This document shows positions 34,770 through 42,358 of a stretch of DNA of 42,358 nucleotides, in pieces. Location of the stretch: contig CALCGD010000026.1 of the NCBI GenBank assembly GCA_937900875.1, positions 1 through 42,358 of the forward strand, given 5' to 3'. This DNA comes from an uncultured Flavobacteriales bacterium. GTDB taxonomy: Bacteria; Bacteroidota; Bacteroidia; UBA10329. Positions within the stretch are counted from its first letter, which is position 1; every line of letters begins with the position of its first letter. Both the position numbers and the translations under genes were made by a program. Below the pieces are notes generated by a model that was given only the letters and a program-made list of their open reading frames with translations, was not told where the DNA came from and ran no database searches.

Positions 34770-35909
34770 ATGATTGACCACTATCTCAACGTTAGAAAAC
34801 GTTCCGAGGAAATTTGTGCCCCACTAAAGCACGAAGACTACAACGCTCAAGTGGCTTTGCATGCCAGTCCAGCAACCTGGCAATTAGGTCATACAACATG
34901 GTTTTTCGAAGAGTTTATCCTGAGCAAATACCATGATGATTACCAACAATATAGAAATGATTGTTCCTTCATTTTCAACAGCTACTACAACAATGTTGGA
35001 GATAGAACCAAAAGAGACGAGAGAAACGAAATTGACTTCTCAATTGAAGAGGTTTATCACTATCGAAAATACGTAGACAAGCATATTGAACTCTTGCTAA
35101 AATTCGATTGCTCAGAAGAAGCCTTACATCTAATAGAGATTGGACTTAACCACGAGCAACAACATCAAGAACTTTTACTGACGGACTTAAAATTCATGCT
35201 CAGTCAGTTGAAACCAGATGGTTGCTACAAGGATGGTGGCAGCCTTGTGCTTTCAATAAATAAAGAAGATGGTTGGATTTCAATAAACGAAGGTGTTTAC
35301 GAAATCGGATTTAATGATGAAGGGTTTTGCTACGATAATGAATTGAGAAGGCACAAAGTTTACCTACACAATTTCGAAATCAGCAAAGCCTTAGTTACAA
35401 ACGGAGAGTTCATCCAATTCATAGAAGCTGGCGGTTATGAAGATTTCAATCTATGGTTAGATGAAGGTTGGACCTGGGTACAGCGTGAAAAAATTAGCTC
35501 ACCACTTTACTGGCAGAAAATTGATCGAGAATGGCATAATTACACTCTTGGCGGATTGAAGAAAATCAACTCAGATGAAATTCTCTGCCACGTTTCGTTT
35601 TACGAAGCTGCGGCTTTTGCAGAATGGAAAACAATGCGATTACCAACTGAATTTGAATGGGAAATTGCCTCTGAACAATTGAATTGGGGCCAACGTTGGG
35701 AATGGACAAATAGCGCCTATCTCCCCTACCCAAATTTCAAAAAAGCACCAGGTGCTTTGGGCGAATACAATGGCAAATTTATGATCAACCAAATGGTATT
35801 GAGAGGCGCTTCTGGTGCCACTTCACCCAATCACAGTAGAAATACTTATCGCAATTTCTTTCACCCACATTTTCAGTGGCAGTTCAGCGGTATACGATTA
35901 GCACGATAG
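34770..35909 (+). CDS. egtB: EgtB-type iron-dependent sulfoxide synthase
   Basis: The 379-residue enzyme joins hercynine to a sulfur donor through an oxygen-dependent C-S bond. The N-terminal DinB-like domain (1-145) holds the iron ligands His41 (QLGHTTWF), His128 and His132 (LNHEQQHQEL). The C-terminal formylglycine-generating/C-type-lectin domain (about 165-379) includes EISKALVTNGEFIQFIEAGG, MRLPTEFEWEIA, RWEWTNSAY and a final FQWQFSGIRLAR. It is shorter than many EgtB proteins (about 420-440 residues). No EgtA or EgtC gene is adjacent, so cysteine may be the donor. egtD starts 1 bp after its stop codon. Confidence 0.9.
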   Translation: MIDHYLNVRKRSEEICAPLKHEDYNAQVALHASPATWQLGHTTWFFEEFILSKYHDDYQQYRNDCSFIFNSYYNNVGDRTKRDERNEIDFSIEEVYHYRKYVDKHIELLLKFDCSEEALHLIEIGLNHEQQHQELLLTDLKFMLSQLKPDGCYKDGGSLVLSINKEDGWISINEGVYEIGFNDEGFCYDNELRRHKVYLHNFEISKALVTNGEFIQFIEAGGYEDFNLWLDEGWTWVQREKISSPLYWQKIDREWHNYTLGGLKKINSDEILCHVSFYEAAAFAEWKTMRLPTEFEWEIASEQLNWGQRWEWTNSAYLPYPNFKKAPGALGEYNGKFMINQMVLRGASGATSPNHSRNTYRNFFHPHFQWQFSGIRLAR

Positions 35910-36854
35910 ATGGAAAAGACATTTGCACAAGAAGTTGAAGAAGGATTATCGGCCAGTCCAAAATTCCTTTCATCCAAGTACCATTATGATGATGAAGGAA
36001 GCCGAATTTTTCAGGAGATTATGGCGATGCCAGAATACTATCTGACAAACTGTGAGTTGGATATTATGAAGAACCGAGCACTGGAAATTTATGGGGCAAC
36101 CGGGTTCAATACGCATTTCAACATTATTGAATTAGGCGCTGGAGACGGAGCTAAAACCAAGGAGTTTTTACAAAATCTTTTAGTCGAAAACATCGACTTT
36201 ACCTATGTTCCGATTGATATATCTAAAGAAGCCATCGACATTCTGGTTAAAACCATGAACCAATCGTTACCCAACCTAAAAATGAATCCACAGGTGGGCG
36301 ATTATTTCGAGGTAATGGGAAAGATTGAAGCAAAAGAAAACTGCCCAAACCTTGTGCTCTTCTTAGGTTCTAACATTGGTAATTTTAAATCCGAGTGGGC
36401 GGTTGATCTTCTTCAACACATGAATGAACACATGCAATCTGCTGACAAGCTTTTGGTGGGTTTCGATTTGATGAAAAACCCTAATCTTATTCGAAATGCT
36501 TACAACGATTCGCAAGGAATCACCGCTAGGTTTAACATGAATGTTCTTACTAGAATAAATCGAGAATTATCTGGTGATTTCAATCTTGACACCTTTGATT
36601 TTTATAGTTTTTACAATCCCGAAAATGGCGATGTAAAAAGCTATATATACAGTTTGATTGAGCAAGACATATCTATTAAAGAAACAGAAAAGTCATTTCA
36701 TTTTGAAAAAGATGAATGCATTTGGATGGAGCTATCGAAGAAATATTCGCTTGATGGAATTGAGAAATTGGGTGCTGATGCTGGTTTCCAGTTCAAAGAG
36801 CATTTCTTGGATAGCAAAGGATATTTCTCCGACAGTCTGTTTACGAAAGGGTAA
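35910..36854 (+). CDS. egtD: L-histidine N-alpha-methyltransferase (EgtD)
   Basis: The 314-residue SAM-dependent enzyme trimethylates histidine to hercynine. Conserved parts: KYHYDDEGSRIFQEIMAMPE followed by YYLTNCE, the SAM loop NIIELGAGDGAKT, VLFLGSNIGNF and GFDLMKNP. The late segment IWMELSKKYSL keeps the Glu-x-Ser pair used to bind the histidine amine. The usual YYLTRTE is YYLTNCE here. It directly follows egtB with no gap and is followed 9 bp later by an ECF sigma gene. No EgtE lyase is in the window; it may be encoded elsewhere, or the product may differ from ergothioneine. Confidence 0.92.
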   Translation: MEKTFAQEVEEGLSASPKFLSSKYHYDDEGSRIFQEIMAMPEYYLTNCELDIMKNRALEIYGATGFNTHFNIIELGAGDGAKTKEFLQNLLVENIDFTYVPIDISKEAIDILVKTMNQSLPNLKMNPQVGDYFEVMGKIEAKENCPNLVLFLGSNIGNFKSEWAVDLLQHMNEHMQSADKLLVGFDLMKNPNLIRNAYNDSQGITARFNMNVLTRINRELSGDFNLDTFDFYSFYNPENGDVKSYIYSLIEQDISIKETEKSFHFEKDECIWMELSKKYSLDGIEKLGADAGFQFKEHFLDSKGYFSDSLFTKG

Positions 36855-36863
36855 TTTGCTCGA

Positions 36864-37412
36864 ATGGAAACCGCAACAGACATCATAACCGAACTTGTGC
36901 AAGAGCACACTTCTGAGTTGGTGGCTTTTGCGGCTAGCGGAGTAAAAGACCGTCAGGAAGCGGACGACCTGGTACAAGACACTTTTATTGCGGCTTTCAA
37001 AGGATTGGAGAACTACAAAGGCGATAGTTCTCATAGAACCTGGCTGTTCTCCATCCTTCGGAATAAAATCACTGACCACTATCGCAAATTCTATAGAGGA
37101 AAAGACCAAGAAATTAGTGGTGATGACTATTTCGATAAAAATGGTTCTTGGATAACTGATAAGCAGCCAACTTCTTTGGGTGACGAAGAACATTTGCTTG
37201 ACAATCCTGAATTCAATACAACCTTATTGAATTGCCGAGAGCATTTGCCACAAAAACAGTTTGCTGTCTTACAGATGAAATACTACGACCAACTAGAAGC
37301 TGAAACCATTTGTAAGGAACTCCAAATTTCATCGACTTACTATTGGCAACTCATCCATCGTGCAAAACTTCAATTACGAGATTGCCTGCAGAAAAACTGG
37401 CTCAATGAATAA
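36864..37412 (+). CDS. ECF sigma factor of the egt operon
   Basis: The 182-residue protein has region 2 (KDRQEADDLVQDTFIAAFKG and HRTWLFSILRNKITDHYRK) and region 4 (LPQKQFAVLQMKYYDQLEAE through YYWQLIHRAKLQLRDCL). It starts 9 bp after egtD and overlaps the anti-sigma gene by 8 bp. This arrangement makes it part of the same transcript as the thiol-histidine genes. A TGTAAGGAA-N13-CGAC site lies inside its 3' end (37311-37336). The same string occurs before yceI and before the gene at 40678, so these are its candidate targets. Confidence 0.92.
   Translation: METATDIITELVQEHTSELVAFAASGVKDRQEADDLVQDTFIAAFKGLENYKGDSSHRTWLFSILRNKITDHYRKFYRGKDQEISGDDYFDKNGSWITDKQPTSLGDEEHLLDNPEFNTTLLNCREHLPQKQFAVLQMKYYDQLEAETICKELQISSTYYWQLIHRAKLQLRDCLQKNWLNE
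37311..37336 (+). promoter_or_regulatory. Internal TGTAAGGAA-N13-CGAC site (candidate ECF promoter)
   Basis: TGTAAGGAA (37311-37319), 13 nt and CGAC (37333-37336) match two intergenic sites exactly in fixed bases and spacing. It lies in the sigma gene, 68 bp before the anti-sigma ATG. It may drive extra anti-sigma, or may be a coincidence of codons. Confidence 0.45.
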
Positions 37413-37674
37413 GCTTAAGAACATACTTATGTTGTCCTGCAAAAGAGCAGCAGAATTAATCGAGAAAAAGCTTGAAGCTCCGTTGAGTACCACAGAATCT
37501 GTGCAGTTATCAATGCACACAAAAATGTGCAAGGCTTGCGGCAACTACCAATCTCAGCAAAGTCTGATTGACCGTGCACTTAGAGAAGATTGTAAATCGT
37601 CTTCCAACGAAGCAGAATGCGAAGACTTGAAGGCATCTATCCTCAAGCAACTGAAATCTGAAGACGAAAAATAA
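37405..37674 (+). CDS. Zinc-binding anti-sigma factor (ZAS type)
   Basis: From the ATG at 37405 the product has 89 residues. It carries the ZAS motif H-x3-C-x2-C as His38, Cys42 and Cys45 (SMHTKMCKACGNYQ), with a further Cys12. Such small cytosolic anti-sigmas bind the sigma factor and release it when the Zn-thiol centre is oxidised. There is no membrane segment, which supports a cytoplasmic redox sensor. It overlaps the sigma stop by 8 bp, typical of coupled sigma/anti-sigma pairs. The frame opens earlier at 37360, but those codons lie inside the sigma gene and precede the conserved fold. Confidence 0.82.
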   Translation: MNKLKNILMLSCKRAAELIEKKLEAPLSTTESVQLSMHTKMCKACGNYQSQQSLIDRALREDCKSSSNEAECEDLKASILKQLKSEDEK

Positions 37675-37727
37675 TCGCCTGATTTAAGTTCAAATCACAT
37701 CCTTTTCAATTTTATTTTCAAGTCGAG

Positions 37728-37753
37728 TGTAAGGAACTTCAAAAGCTACCGAC
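37728..37753 (+). promoter_or_regulatory. Candidate ECF promoter of yceI
   Basis: TGTAAGGAA (37728-37736), 13 nt and CGAC (37750-37753) end 33 bp before the yceI ATG. Read as TGTAAG-N16-CGAC, the spacing is normal for ECF promoters. The spacer shares the pattern YTYSAAAW with the other two sites. Confidence 0.7.
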
Positions 37754-37786
37754 CATCATGGTGTAATTCACAAAAACACAAACATC

Positions 37787-38383
37787 ATGAAAACATTTGC
37801 AAGTTTATTAATGGCCGCAGTCCTTATACCTGCACTCAGCGCATTCAGACCAATGGATGCTCCATCTTGGAAGATGGACGCCAGTCACAGTTCAGTATCA
37901 TTTTCAGTTAACCATTTCTTGGTCCCGGTTGATGGTCGCTTCAATAATTTTGAGGGAGAGGTAAAACTTGCCAAAGACAATTTACTAAACAGTTCTGCCA
38001 GCTTTACAATTGATGTGGCAAGCGTTGACACACGAGATGAAAAGCGAAACAAACACCTCCAGAGTGGAGACTTTTTCGATGCTAAGAAATTCCCGAAAAT
38101 GACTTTTGTTTCAAACAAATTTGAAGACAAAGGAAATGGAGAGTTGGTGGTGCACGGAAAACTAACCATTAAAGATGTGACTAAGGATGTGACAATTCCA
38201 TTCAAGATATTGGGCGAAATGCAACATCCCATGAAAAAGAACATGTTAGTTTCTGGAATTCAACTAAAAACCACCATTAACAGAAACGACTACGGTGTTG
38301 GTTCTGGAAGTTGGGCGGCAAGTGCTGTAGTTGGAGACGAAGTTGAAATTAAGGTAACACTGGAGCTAACAAGAAACTCGTAA
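37787..38383 (+). CDS. YceI-family periplasmic lipid-binding protein
   Basis: The 198-residue protein has a signal peptide (MKTFASLLMAAVLIPALSAF) and a lipocalin-like YceI barrel. Motifs include WKMDASHSSVSFSVNHFLVP, SASFTIDVASVDTRDEKRNK, HLQSGDFFDAKKFPKMTF and IKTTINRNDYGVG-like LKTTINRNDYGVG. Family members bind polyisoprenoids such as ubiquinone precursors and are often under ECF or stress control. A candidate ECF promoter lies upstream, and the anti-sigma gene lies before it (112 bp gap). Confidence 0.9.
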   Translation: MKTFASLLMAAVLIPALSAFRPMDAPSWKMDASHSSVSFSVNHFLVPVDGRFNNFEGEVKLAKDNLLNSSASFTIDVASVDTRDEKRNKHLQSGDFFDAKKFPKMTFVSNKFEDKGNGELVVHGKLTIKDVTKDVTIPFKILGEMQHPMKKNMLVSGIQLKTTINRNDYGVGSGSWAASAVVGDEVEIKVTLELTRNS

Positions 38384-38402
38384 TCCCATTGGTTGATGGT
38401 AG

Positions 38403-38440
38403 GAAGGTTGCTGTGCCCAAACGGTACAGCAACCTTCATT
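38403..38440 (+). terminator. Strong hairpin after yceI
   Basis: GAAGGTTGCTGT (38403-38414) pairs perfectly with ACAGCAACCTTC (38426-38437); the stem can extend by three more pairs (including one G-T) to a 5-nt loop CAAAC. The T-run after it is short (ATTTCC), but stem strength and position 19 bp after the stop codon support termination. Confidence 0.7.
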
Positions 38441-38514
38441 TCCAATTCAAACCGCGAAGTTCTCTGCATCATTTCAAATCACAATTCCACTGGTATTAAC
38501 GAGAATACAAAGAC

Positions 38515-39051
38515 ATGACTCGACTTAATAAAAACAACATGGCTCCCGATTTCCGCACGGTAGATTTCCTCGGGAATTCAGTGTCGCTGTCATCTCATTC
38601 GGGCAAACAAACATTGCTATGCTTTTTTAGAGGAGCTGCATGTCCGTTTTGCAATATGCGACTTCACGAATTGATAGAAGCATATCCTGAATTGAGCAAG
38701 AATGGACTGAATATCATCACCGTTTTCTCATCAACAGCCACAGAAATTGCTGAGTTTTCTGGTCGACAAGAGCCTCCTTTCCCTATCATTCCAGACCCCG
38801 CACTAGACTTATATAGAAAGTACGGAGTTGAGCAATCTAGCATGGGACTGATTAAAACAATGATGCGACCAAAACGAATGTGGCAAATGATGACGAGTGA
38901 GTTTTTCGATACGAAGGCCATGAACGACAGACCAATTATTCCAGCCGACTTTCTGATTGATTCAGAACTACAGATTAGCCGCGTCTACTACGGTCAGAAC
39001 TTTTCAGATCATATACCTATTTCGGAGGTTAAAAATTGGCTTAAGAAATGA
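38515..39051 (+). CDS. Peroxiredoxin-like protein (AhpC/TSA, CxxC)
   Basis: The 178-residue thioredoxin-fold protein starts APDFRTVDFLGNSVSLSSHS and has the active site FFRGAACPFCNMRLHEL with Cys43 and Cys46. The CxxC pair is in the peroxidatic position, as in Prx-like/thiol-reductase hybrids. It likely reduces peroxides or disulfides in the cytosol. It overlaps the SpoIIE-type phosphatase start as ATGA. Its nearness to the ZAS sigma system fits an oxidative-stress context, but no TGTAAGGAA site precedes it. Confidence 0.83.
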   Translation: MTRLNKNNMAPDFRTVDFLGNSVSLSSHSGKQTLLCFFRGAACPFCNMRLHELIEAYPELSKNGLNIITVFSSTATEIAEFSGRQEPPFPIIPDPALDLYRKYGVEQSSMGLIKTMMRPKRMWQMMTSEFFDTKAMNDRPIIPADFLIDSELQISRVYYGQNFSDHIPISEVKNWLKK

Positions 39052-40520
39052 GAAAACTACGGTTCCAACTTTTTGCAATCGTGTACGCGGGCATGCTATT
39101 GCTAGCGTGTGTTCTTATCTATGGACAATACCAACGTAGCCTACAACTATCTGAAAGATTGGTGCTGGAAAGATTGCAATCTGTGGCTTCAACATTAGCT
39201 CCTCGAATTAATGCCGATGAGCTTAATCACCTACACTTGCGCTTTCCGCTAACAGAAGGACTAACGAATCTTCCCGCTGCCGATAGCTCTTTCATTCGAC
39301 TTACGGAAGTTCTGCATGAAGCATTTACATCCAATAATCTTAAAACTCCCATTTATACAATTACCACTGATGAGACTGGAACCGTATTACGGCTCGGAAT
39401 TTCCAGTCACGGTGCGAGCACCTACGGACTACCGTACGAAACACACTTACAAGAACATATTGCTATTTATGAGTCTGGCGGAACCATTCGACCCTATGAA
39501 GATGAGTGGGGGGTTTGGCTTACAGCAATGGTTCCTCTTGTTGCTTCCAACGGAAAACAGATTGCGGCTTTAGAGGTCGATTTCCCGTTTGGCGATTTCA
39601 TCATGTATGCCAAAGACGACCTTCTACATAACTTGGCAACGGCAGCACTCATCTTTCTTATAATTGGAATTCTCCTCTATCTATTCATGCGAATCGCGCT
39701 CAATAAAGACGAAGAGAGACAAACTCAACTCCGTACTGCAAATGAGGAAGTACGAGAAAAGAAAGAAGCGTTAGAAAGCAGCATTAGATACGCTGCTCGT
39801 ATGCAGGCTATTCTACAACCTGCGGAGGCCGTCTTTGCTGATTTTTTCACAGGTCACTTGCTTCTAGATTTACCAAGAGATACGGTGAGTGGAGATTTTA
39901 TTTGGTTCCGAAAAATTGATAACGAAAGAGCTTTATTGGTTGTTGCTGATTGTACAGGACATGGCGTGCCTGGTGCTTTCATGTCAATCATGGGACACGA
40001 TTTGTTGAATGACGCAGCGGCCATTGAAAACCTAACTGCGCCTGATGAAATACTACGATACGTAGATAAACGAGTTTGTGCAGCATTTGGATGTGGCGGA
40101 TCGACAACGACTGATGGAATGGACATGGCCGTTTGTCTTATTGATAAAAAAACCAGCACTCTCACATTCGCGGGCGCTCGAAGGCCGATGACAATCATCA
40201 ATTCAGATGGTGAGAAATTGATAAACGGAACTAGAAGAAGCATTGGAGATCAAACATTAGATGGTGGAATTCCGTTTGAAACCCATACAGTTGAGTTAGA
40301 ACCTGAAAGTCGGTTCTTCCTTTATTCGGATGGCATGCAAGATCAATTTGGAGGAGAAAAAGAGAAAAAATTGGGGCACGCGCGTCTACGAAATTGGTTT
40401 GCAGAGTTACCAGCAATTTTTGGTGCTTCTTCTAAAGTAAAACTCACCCAATTGCTGCATGAATGGAAAGGAAGAAACGAGCAGGTTGACGATATAATGG
40501 TTTTCGGATTTAGCGTTTAA
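39048..40520 (+). CDS. Membrane-bound SpoIIE-type PP2C phosphatase
   Basis: The 490-residue protein has a transmembrane helix at residues 8-27, an extracytoplasmic sensor region (28-205), a second helix (about 206-228), a coiled coil (230-262) and a SpoIIE/PP2C phosphatase domain (about 270-490). Metal-site motifs are DTVSGDFIW, VVADCTGHGVPGAFMSIMG, GMDMAVCLID, YSDGMQDQFGG and QVDDIMVFGF. In the family such enzymes act on anti-sigma antagonist or related phosphoproteins in partner-switch signalling. No STAS or HPK-type gene is nearby, so its target is unknown. Its ATG overlaps the peroxiredoxin stop. Confidence 0.9.
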   Translation: MRKLRFQLFAIVYAGMLLLACVLIYGQYQRSLQLSERLVLERLQSVASTLAPRINADELNHLHLRFPLTEGLTNLPAADSSFIRLTEVLHEAFTSNNLKTPIYTITTDETGTVLRLGISSHGASTYGLPYETHLQEHIAIYESGGTIRPYEDEWGVWLTAMVPLVASNGKQIAALEVDFPFGDFIMYAKDDLLHNLATAALIFLIIGILLYLFMRIALNKDEERQTQLRTANEEVREKKEALESSIRYAARMQAILQPAEAVFADFFTGHLLLDLPRDTVSGDFIWFRKIDNERALLVVADCTGHGVPGAFMSIMGHDLLNDAAAIENLTAPDEILRYVDKRVCAAFGCGGSTTTDGMDMAVCLIDKKTSTLTFAGARRPMTIINSDGEKLINGTRRSIGDQTLDGGIPFETHTVELEPESRFFLYSDGMQDQFGGEKEKKLGHARLRNWFAELPAIFGASSKVKLTQLLHEWKGRNEQVDDIMVFGFSV

Positions 40521-40576
40521 CAGCCCAAAACCAGAGCATCCCAAGACAAGCCCTATCTTACATTTTCTCGTTTCGT

Positions 40577-40602
40577 TGTAAGGAATTTGAAATTCGTGCG
40601 AC
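40577..40602 (+). promoter_or_regulatory. Candidate ECF promoter of the 40678 operon
   Basis: TGTAAGGAA (40577-40585), 13 nt, CGAC (40599-40602) match the site before yceI in every fixed base. The ATG follows 75 bp later. An imperfect dyad lies in the leader between them. Confidence 0.68.
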
Positions 40603-40677: not shown

Positions 40678-41508
40678 ATGAATTCACCACCTGAACAAAC
40701 AACTTACACCATGAAAGATTACCTAATAGCAGAAGCGCAAATCCATGTTGCTTCGCAGATGATTTCCCTGACGGGTAAAAATTTAGTCTACAAACAATCT
40801 GATGATAGCCACACCACAGCTCGATGGAATTCTGAGAAACAACTAATCAACGGTCGTGAATTCATTCTAAAAGGAAACATCTACACCATTTTCATTGACC
40901 CAATTGATTTTGCATTTGGCATGATGAAAAACGGCTCAGAAACTAACCGTGTTTCTCTTAACGGACTGACTTACATGCAAACCGTTGAACCTTGGAAGAA
41001 ATGGCTTGCTGAAGCTGGGTTTACAGGAGATTTAGACCTCAAATTGCATTACGAATTACCCAGGAACGAATTGTACAAATTCGGTGCTTTCAGCAAACCG
41101 AATGAGGCCGTATTGAAGCTGTGGGCAAAAAACAGAACGATAGCAAACGGTGCACTTCAGGCATTAACGGAAGCTGTTAATTCCAAATCTGACATTAACA
41201 TTTGGCCGCACCATTTCGATAGTGGAACTTACTACGAATTGCATAAAACCGATGGCGCAACCGACCGTTCCATTGGTGCTGGGTTCAATCCAGCAGATGA
41301 CATGGTTACTGAACCTTATTACTATATCTACGGTTGGTACAAAGACAACGAGATTGATTATTTAGACAAACCGCAACTGGAAAACGGAAAATGGCTTGTT
41401 GATGATTGGAAAGGTGCTGTTTTACCGATTACCGAGGTTAAAGACCAATCAACAGTCGATAACTTCTTTAAAAGCACTTCAACTTACCTGAAAAGCAAAC
41501 TGAAATGA
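40678..41508 (+). CDS. DUF5996-like protein of unknown function
   Basis: The 276-residue soluble protein has a pattern resembling DUF5996: INIWPHHFDSGTYYEL, then SIGAGFNPADDMVTEPYYYI followed by YGWY. These His/Asp residues suggest metal or small-molecule binding, but no reaction is known. A second start at 40711 (MKDYLIAEAQIHV) is possible. The gene overlaps the DUF427 gene by ATGA. It follows a candidate ECF promoter and a dyad. Confidence 0.55.
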   Translation: MNSPPEQTTYTMKDYLIAEAQIHVASQMISLTGKNLVYKQSDDSHTTARWNSEKQLINGREFILKGNIYTIFIDPIDFAFGMMKNGSETNRVSLNGLTYMQTVEPWKKWLAEAGFTGDLDLKLHYELPRNELYKFGAFSKPNEAVLKLWAKNRTIANGALQALTEAVNSKSDINIWPHHFDSGTYYELHKTDGATDRSIGAGFNPADDMVTEPYYYIYGWYKDNEIDYLDKPQLENGKWLVDDWKGAVLPITEVKDQSTVDNFFKSTSTYLKSKLK

Positions 41509-41786
41509 AAGCAATTTGGAATGGCCAAATTCTGGCCGAAAGCGACAAAACAGTTGTAATTGAAAACAACCACTACTTTCCTGCCGACAGCGTGAATATG
41601 GAGTTTTTCAAAACCTCCGATTACCACACGGTTTGTCCATGGAAAGGAACCGCTTCTTATCATTCGATTGAAATGAATGGAGAAACAAACAAGGATGCTA
41701 TGTGGCATTACCCACAAACTAAAGACTCGGCCAAGGTTATTGAAGGAATGTTTGCCTTTTGGAAAGGCGTAGAAATCACTAATTAA
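41505..41786 (+). CDS. DUF427 family protein
   Basis: The 93-residue protein starts MKAIWNGQILAESDKTVVIE and carries the family pattern ENNHYFPADSVNMEFF, TVCPWKGTASYHSI and DAMWHYPQTKDSAKVIEGMF. DUF427 (PF04248) is a small beta-rich domain with no established function and a conserved Cys-Pro-Trp-Lys-Gly. Its start overlaps the previous stop (ATGA), and the Rieske/glutamate-synthase-like gene follows directly. Confidence 0.88.
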   Translation: MKAIWNGQILAESDKTVVIENNHYFPADSVNMEFFKTSDYHTVCPWKGTASYHSIEMNGETNKDAMWHYPQTKDSAKVIEGMFAFWKGVEITN

Positions 41787-42358
41787 ATGAAAGAACCAAA
41801 AGCGATTGCCAAATTCTCAGAATTGGAGAACAGAAAACCAGCTCATGCCCAAGTTGAGAATATTGATCTGGTCATAATTAGGTACGAAGAAAATGTGAGT
41901 GTACTGTATGGAAGATGCTTGCATCGCGGAGCACTAATGTCTGACGGAAGCGTGCAAGGAGACAATCTAATCTGCGGGTTACATGGCTGGGATTACCGTA
42001 TTGACACCGGTGTTTCTGAATACAATAATGCCGAAGTGTTGAACAAGTTTTCATCTGAAATTAGCGGAGATGATGTCGTGATTGATGTGGCCGAAATTCG
42101 TTCATTCGGAGTACAACACCCGCAGCCGTTCAATCGTGATAGCTATTTGGGCAATTATGCAGATACGCATCCCGAACCTTCAGAACCTTATACGGGCTAC
42201 ATCAAAGAACTGGCTCAAAATGGCTTGAAGAATTGGGGGCATCACGGCCCAACAGCAGCAATGGGCGTTGATCGCACAACCCTACCAAAATGGGAAGACA
42301 TACAGTTTTTGCCCGCACAATTGGCTAGGCGGCCTTTGTTGGATAATGAAAATGTAAT
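41787..42358 (+). CDS. Rieske-glutamate-synthase-like fusion (N-terminal part)
   Basis: The gene starts with ATG at 41787, directly after the DUF427 stop, and runs off the right edge after about 190 codons. Residues 15-105 form a Rieske [2Fe-2S] domain with Cys44/His46 (GRCLHRGA) and Cys63/His66 (LICGLHGWDY). From about residue 155 the sequence NWGHHGPTAAMGVDRTTLP, then WEDIQFLPAQLARRPLLD, matches the start of the FMN-binding glutamate-synthase domain (GltB C-terminal type). The complete protein would combine a Rieske cluster and a flavin domain, so it is probably an oxidoreductase. The substrate is unknown. Confidence 0.82.
   Translation, partial: MKEPKAIAKFSELENRKPAHAQVENIDLVIIRYEENVSVLYGRCLHRGALMSDGSVQGDNLICGLHGWDYRIDTGVSEYNNAEVLNKFSSEISGDDVVIDVAEIRSFGVQHPQPFNRDSYLGNYADTHPEPSEPYTGYIKELAQNGLKNWGHHGPTAAMGVDRTTLPKWEDIQFLPAQLARRPLLDNENV

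Follow-up and report, generated by a model that had tools for sequence, protein, structure and literature searches.

A predicted sigma-dependent promoter embedded in the helix-turn-helix codons of a Bacteroidota ECF sigma factor gene

The window analysed here is a 42,358-nt stretch of DNA from an uncultured Flavobacteriales bacterium, and the question that it raises is why three exact copies of the gapped string TGTAAGGAA-N13-CGAC, all on the plus strand, lie close together around the gene for an ECF sigma factor, one of them inside that gene (Table 1). An earlier note on this DNA had pointed out the three copies, had placed two of them between genes and the third in the sigma gene, and had judged their number far above chance. 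All of this holds: by base composition about 0.0012 copies would be expected in the window, and in the whole 3.6 Mb genome, which the note had proposed to scan, the string is rare, with 4 copies against an expectation of 0.11 and 0 for a reversed control. Three of the four copies fall inside 3.3 kb and three of the four stand before genes, namely the two intergenic copies (one 33 nt ahead of yceI, the other 75 nt ahead of the reading frame at 40678) and the fourth, at G000:C172:4314-4339 (L066), which ends 29 nt short of the start codon, an ATG, of a gene for a secreted protein. In another family (L087/G054) a homolog of this last gene (E 1e-28) comes immediately after the anti-sigma gene. Allowing two mismatches gave 52 matches in the genome versus 86 in the reversed control; since there was no excess, looser motif searches are useless, and the counts below come from strict patterns, which undercount variants of the motif.

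Table 1. Genes and predicted promoter elements of the locus (window positions)
Feature	Positions	Strand	Basis
egtB, ergothioneine biosynthesis	34770..35909	+	TIGR03440 E 1.5e-147, above cut-off; gene spacing
egtD-like histidine methyltransferase	35910..36854	+	PF10017 E 4e-96; TIGR03438 290.4 bits, cut-off 290.9
ECF sigma factor, nearest family TIGR02943 (Sig70_famx1), below cut-off	36864..37412	+	TIGR02943, PF04542, PF08281
Intragenic promoter site (predicted)	37311..37336	+	-35 TGTAAGG 37311-37317; -10 CGAC 37333-37336
Zinc-type anti-sigma factor, HTKMCKAC (HxxxCxxC)	37405..37674	+	NF052368 52.5 bits, cut-off 50
Intergenic promoter (predicted) of yceI	37728..37753	+	exact match; same place in G001, G005, G006
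YceI-family secreted protein, predicted target	37787..38383	+	PF04264 E 2e-47
SelL-related AhpC/TSA redoxin	38515..39051	+	PF00578, NF040769; no site of its own
SiaA-like PP2C/SpoIIE-type phosphatase, N-terminal sensor region	39048..40520	+	NF038263 E 3e-47, below cut-off
Intergenic promoter (predicted) of 40678 operon	40577..40602	+	exact match
Protein of no known family, predicted target	40678..41508	+	no Pfam or NCBIfam match
DUF427 protein, same predicted operon as 40678	41505..41786	+	PF04248 E 4e-31
Rieske domain protein, same predicted operon, cut by window end	41787..42356	+	PF00355; full-length relative L062:3121-4734

The sigma factor matches TIGR02943 better than any other family but, at 142.2 bits, does not reach the curated cut-off of 162.2, and we therefore name it TIGR02943-like only. 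Its regions 2 and 4 both score above cut-off, and orthologs are present in 4 congeners and widespread in the phylum. The small reading frame directly downstream carries HxxxCxxC and exceeds the NF052368 cut-off, which places it among the zinc-type anti-sigma factors; its start overlaps the sigma stop codon by 8 nt and lies 68 nt after the internal site. On the other side, the ergothioneine genes egtB and egtD probably share one operon with the sigma/anti-sigma pair (34770-37674), and this arrangement suggests a redox link. Upstream of egtB in the window we found no clear match to the motif, and none at the right spacing, so an autopromoter at that position was rejected. Downstream of yceI, the SelL-related redoxin gene is possibly read through from the predicted yceI promoter. 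The product of 40678 had been labelled DUF5996-like, a label we drop as there is no Pfam match at E 0.1; it has a single partial relative within the genus. In this relative (L062:5013-5779, in G001) the match begins only at residue 53, and its gene lies directly beside yceI: the redoxin and phosphatase genes that stand between the two in the window are absent, through either a deletion or mis-assembly.

What would read these sites? The data support their interpretation as TGT(A/C)AGG-N15-CG(A/T)C promoters of the neighbouring TIGR02943-like sigma factor. The earlier note had likewise taken them for ECF promoters and had proposed the adjacent pair as the candidate, and both points survive in a corrected form of the motif: the spacer pattern YTYSAAAW fits the three window sites and is lost in the sites of relatives, and was rejected as a part of the motif. 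Our reasoning is that -35 and -10 elements at a fixed spacing recur upstream of putative targets where the sigma is present. Within the genus, where 5 of 9 genomes carry a sigma ortholog, strict sites are found 32-34 nt before yceI in G001, G005 and G006; G005 and G006 have a further strict site, on the other strand, in the region upstream of the sigma gene, and the one in G005 precedes a DUF6789-like reading frame. In G004 the internal site is the only strict one, and the four congeners that lack the sigma have 0 sites. The class was covered with 295 genomes: the 57 that carry the sigma have 61 matches to TGTAAGGNW-N13-CGAC, and the 238 others have 47. With the pattern TGTAAGGWW-N13-CGWC there are 0.20 matches per sigma-negative genome and 52 non-internal sites, about 1.7 each, in the 31 sigma-positive genomes of the Lys type (defined below). 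The further idea of a local regulon stands in part: the sites do cluster near the sigma gene, but they are not restricted to the locus, further ones being found elsewhere in the genome and in relatives. The genome also holds at least seven other ECF-type matches, and one of these factors might conceivably read the sites instead; however, the clustering around the adjacent sigma, the lack of excess in sigma-less genomes and a variable -35 base that tracks the type of the adjacent sigma (see below) make this highly improbable.

The genes adjoining sites in sigma-carrying relatives encode YceI, DUF6789, DUF1223, YHS, cytochrome P460-like, DsrE, rhodanese-thioredoxin, MsrA/MsrB and AhpD-like proteins as well as HvfA-like metallophore precursors, with a median distance of 38 nt from the -10 element to the ATG; the targets predicted in this way are redox, thiol and metal genes. 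The HvfA-like precursors, which carry KCGExKCG, are frequent predicted targets of the sigma in Bacteroidota, and in L075, L146, L164, L215, L216 and L221 such a gene stands behind a site after the anti-sigma gene. A clade of family f5 (L076, L077, L078, L102 and L114) has kept TGTAAGGAA with a -10 of CTTC in place of CG(A/T)C, possibly an altered -10 specificity, and some f5 loci have an HvfA-like gene directly after the anti-sigma gene.

Of the three copies, the one in the sigma gene matters most and is no incidental one. It lies over the codons for ICKELQISST, and the corresponding bases in orthologs, within the region 4 helix-turn-helix, encode C-K-E-L-x-I-S-[S/P/A/T]-[S/T]. One could argue that only the intergenic sites are promoters and that conservation of the protein sequence (CKEL..ST) yields the match in the sigma gene as a by-product: the residues are conserved, the Cys almost invariant, and Halomonas also has TGTAAGGAA at that place, without a -10. 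However, it is the choice of codons that is conserved as well. Across 161 distinct orthologs from Bacteroidota and Ignavibacteriota, with expectations taken from the codon usage of the same genes, the codons for I-C-[K/Q]-E..-[S/P/A/T]-[S/T] are kept as TGT-(A/C)AG-GAA..NCG-WC, in that: (i) the wobble base of the NCG codon is G in 106 of 143 cases versus 26 expected (p 7e-48), through changes of the amino acid between S, P, A and T; (ii) Lys is encoded by AAG in 69/72 (17 expected); (iii) Gln is encoded by CAG in 51/54 (23 expected) and (iv) Cys is encoded by TGT in 141/153 (76 expected). In other columns of the first 70 orthologs, AAG reached at most 43% of Lys codons and G at most 38% of NCN codons, and 74 named genomes that were fetched with peptides excluding the site region showed the same bias (43/65 and 26/26). 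To lessen the effect of relatedness we compared reciprocal nearest pairs: where the residue differed the wobble G was kept in 7 of 9 pairs (6/158 elsewhere), and where it was the same the codon was identical in 19 of 21 (37% elsewhere). The intragenic site thus looks like a conserved promoter under selection at the DNA level rather than a coincidence.

The by-product reading is further challenged by covariation of the internal site with sites in trans. At its fourth position the internal -35 has either A, in the AAG codon for Lys, or C, in the CAG codon for Gln. External sites near the locus follow this base, with 14 A : 2 C at loci of the A type and 1 A : 14 C at loci of the C type (p 7e-6). 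Genome-wide, with internal sites excluded by a hand count and G512 left out, the ratio was 52 A : 3 C in 31 Lys-type genomes versus 7 A : 15 C in 16 Gln-type genomes (p 3e-8, a value that ignores relatedness). G512, which has an internal site of the A type and C-type sites near the locus, is a counter-example, and G004 is a partial one. For the -10 base (CGAC or CGTC), covariation between internal and external sites was not significant (p 0.48). We also considered the Lys/Gln residue as the determinant of specificity and rejected it: genomes with Ala, Ser, Thr or Asp there still use TGTAAGG (six autopromoter-type genomes of family f40 have 22 A-type versus 4 C-type matches), so the residue does not set specificity and it is the internal site that follows specificity.

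A third line of evidence comes from loci in which a copy of the motif immediately precedes the sigma gene. Among the 159 loci with enough upstream sequence, such an autopromoter was present in 0 of 89 with an intact internal site versus 17 of 70 without one (p 2.6e-7), an exclusion that amounts to about two independent switches, chiefly one event, as 16 of the 17 form one clade in a quick tree (its named members all Sphingobacteriaceae) and the remaining one is L105. In the autopromoter genomes the Lys/Gln residue has mostly turned into Ala, Ser, Thr, Asp, Leu or Val. A plausible scenario is that the acquisition of an autopromoter by the operon lets the embedded promoter decay and relieves the protein residue of its constraint, and such a release is the pattern expected if regulation, and not protein function, had held the residue in place. 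Most likely, then, the internal promoter was swapped for autoregulation in Sphingobacteriaceae. That residue and codon both relax once the autopromoter appears is difficult to reconcile with a by-product of protein sequence, a reading we now regard as quite improbable. The strict patterns find no intact internal site and no autopromoter in 53 of the 161 orthologs (33%), many of which differ only at the -10 (NCT-AC, CTTC). At autopromoter-type loci, mostly of Sphingobacteriaceae, the motif is followed by genes for small secreted proteins that are rich in Met and Lys and belong to no known family (L093, L096, L103, L179, L189, L196, L199, L200, L203 and L211); several of these loci also have a DUF1223 gene in divergent orientation.

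We hold it to be likely that TGT(A/C)AGG-N15-CG(A/T)C is the promoter of this sigma factor and that the internal copy would drive the anti-sigma gene alone, as negative feedback. The cognate promoter sequence lies inside the sigma gene and reads into the anti-sigma gene; the same anti-sigma gene adjoins the sigma in 156 of 161 orthologs, and in 89 of the 91 intact loci its reading frame is downstream, at a median of 80 nt from the site. From the sites and their spacing, the tie to the sigma, the DNA-level selection, the A/C covariation and the autopromoter exclusion, all supported by the sequences, we infer how transcription would run, in which direction the feedback would work and what the signal may be. 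Housekeeping polymerase would probably start upstream of egtB and transcribe the sigma and anti-sigma genes jointly, and the zinc-type anti-sigma factor, to judge from its family, would hold the sigma until an oxidant or metal frees it. Free sigma would then transcribe yceI, the 40678-DUF427-Rieske operon and the distant secreted-protein gene and, from the site in its own helix-turn-helix codons, the anti-sigma gene alone, with a transcript start near 37343. Shut-off could in this way be regained without more sigma being made. The targets and the type of anti-sigma factor point to thiol or methionine oxidation, or copper, as the inducing signal. Alternatively, the internal site might bind the sigma holoenzyme as a decoy, pause or roadblock, which would yield the same constraints on the sequence. 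We think this unlikely, as the orientation, the full -35/-10 and the spacing are those of the external promoters, the distance from the site to the anti-sigma start is about 80 nt at almost every locus, and the fact that an upstream promoter of like type can take the site's place speaks for a role in transcription.

Taking the anti-sigma promoter as the preferred reading, we consider it probable, on the comparative evidence, that we are dealing with a phylum-wide dual-coded element, in which the DNA for a helix-turn-helix is also a promoter read by that same helix-turn-helix and can be swapped for an upstream autopromoter. The Cys and Lys/Gln codons and residues would then be fixed by regulation, the site would follow the A/C specificity and the swap would exchange feedback for autoregulation. 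If this is true, it provides a clear bacterial case in which a promoter function within a coding sequence has dictated, over the time depth of a phylum, which codons and amino acids are used, a natural experiment in the rewiring of a circuit between negative feedback and autoregulation, and a defined, testable redox/metal ECF regulon and promoter motif for little-studied Bacteroidota.

There is precedent for this type of circuit, and for the deeply conserved overlap with the helix-turn-helix code we found no earlier description in the open literature, where a search for such an overlap and for this sigma family returned nothing relevant. Plasmid-borne Pseudomonadota relatives of the sigma adjoin DUF692, DoxX, 'putative DNA-binding' and zf-HC2 genes, and the RpoQ-RsqA/bufferin-hvf-gig ECF loci of that phylum, in which the copper-induced gigPABT adjoins rpoQ-rsqA (PMC10304878), resemble ours in neighbour genes and in HvfA-like targets; unlike the Bacteroidota, however, 0 of 7 Pseudomonadota relatives have a complete embedded site. 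The ECF motif SM6 of Flavobacterium psychrophilum (PMC9723704) resembles ours in being an ECF promoter of Bacteroidota whose -10 box reads CGT and which precedes a sigma/anti-sigma pair. It is tied, however, to type IX secretion genes, and the main-text passages covered here describe no intragenic site. The closest parallel is sigH-rshA of Corynebacterium glutamicum, also an ECF sigma/anti-sigma pair, where in addition to housekeeping promoters a sigma-dependent promoter inside the sigma gene serves the anti-sigma gene only, as supported by Northern blot and reporter (PMC3489674). An intragenic site for the anti-sigma gene, in our case a predicted promoter, is common to both systems. The C. 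glutamicum case concerns one species and a CGTT-like -10 in another phylum and another sigma family, whereas the site described here persists across a phylum, lies over codons of the helix-turn-helix and appears to shape the choice of codon and residue.
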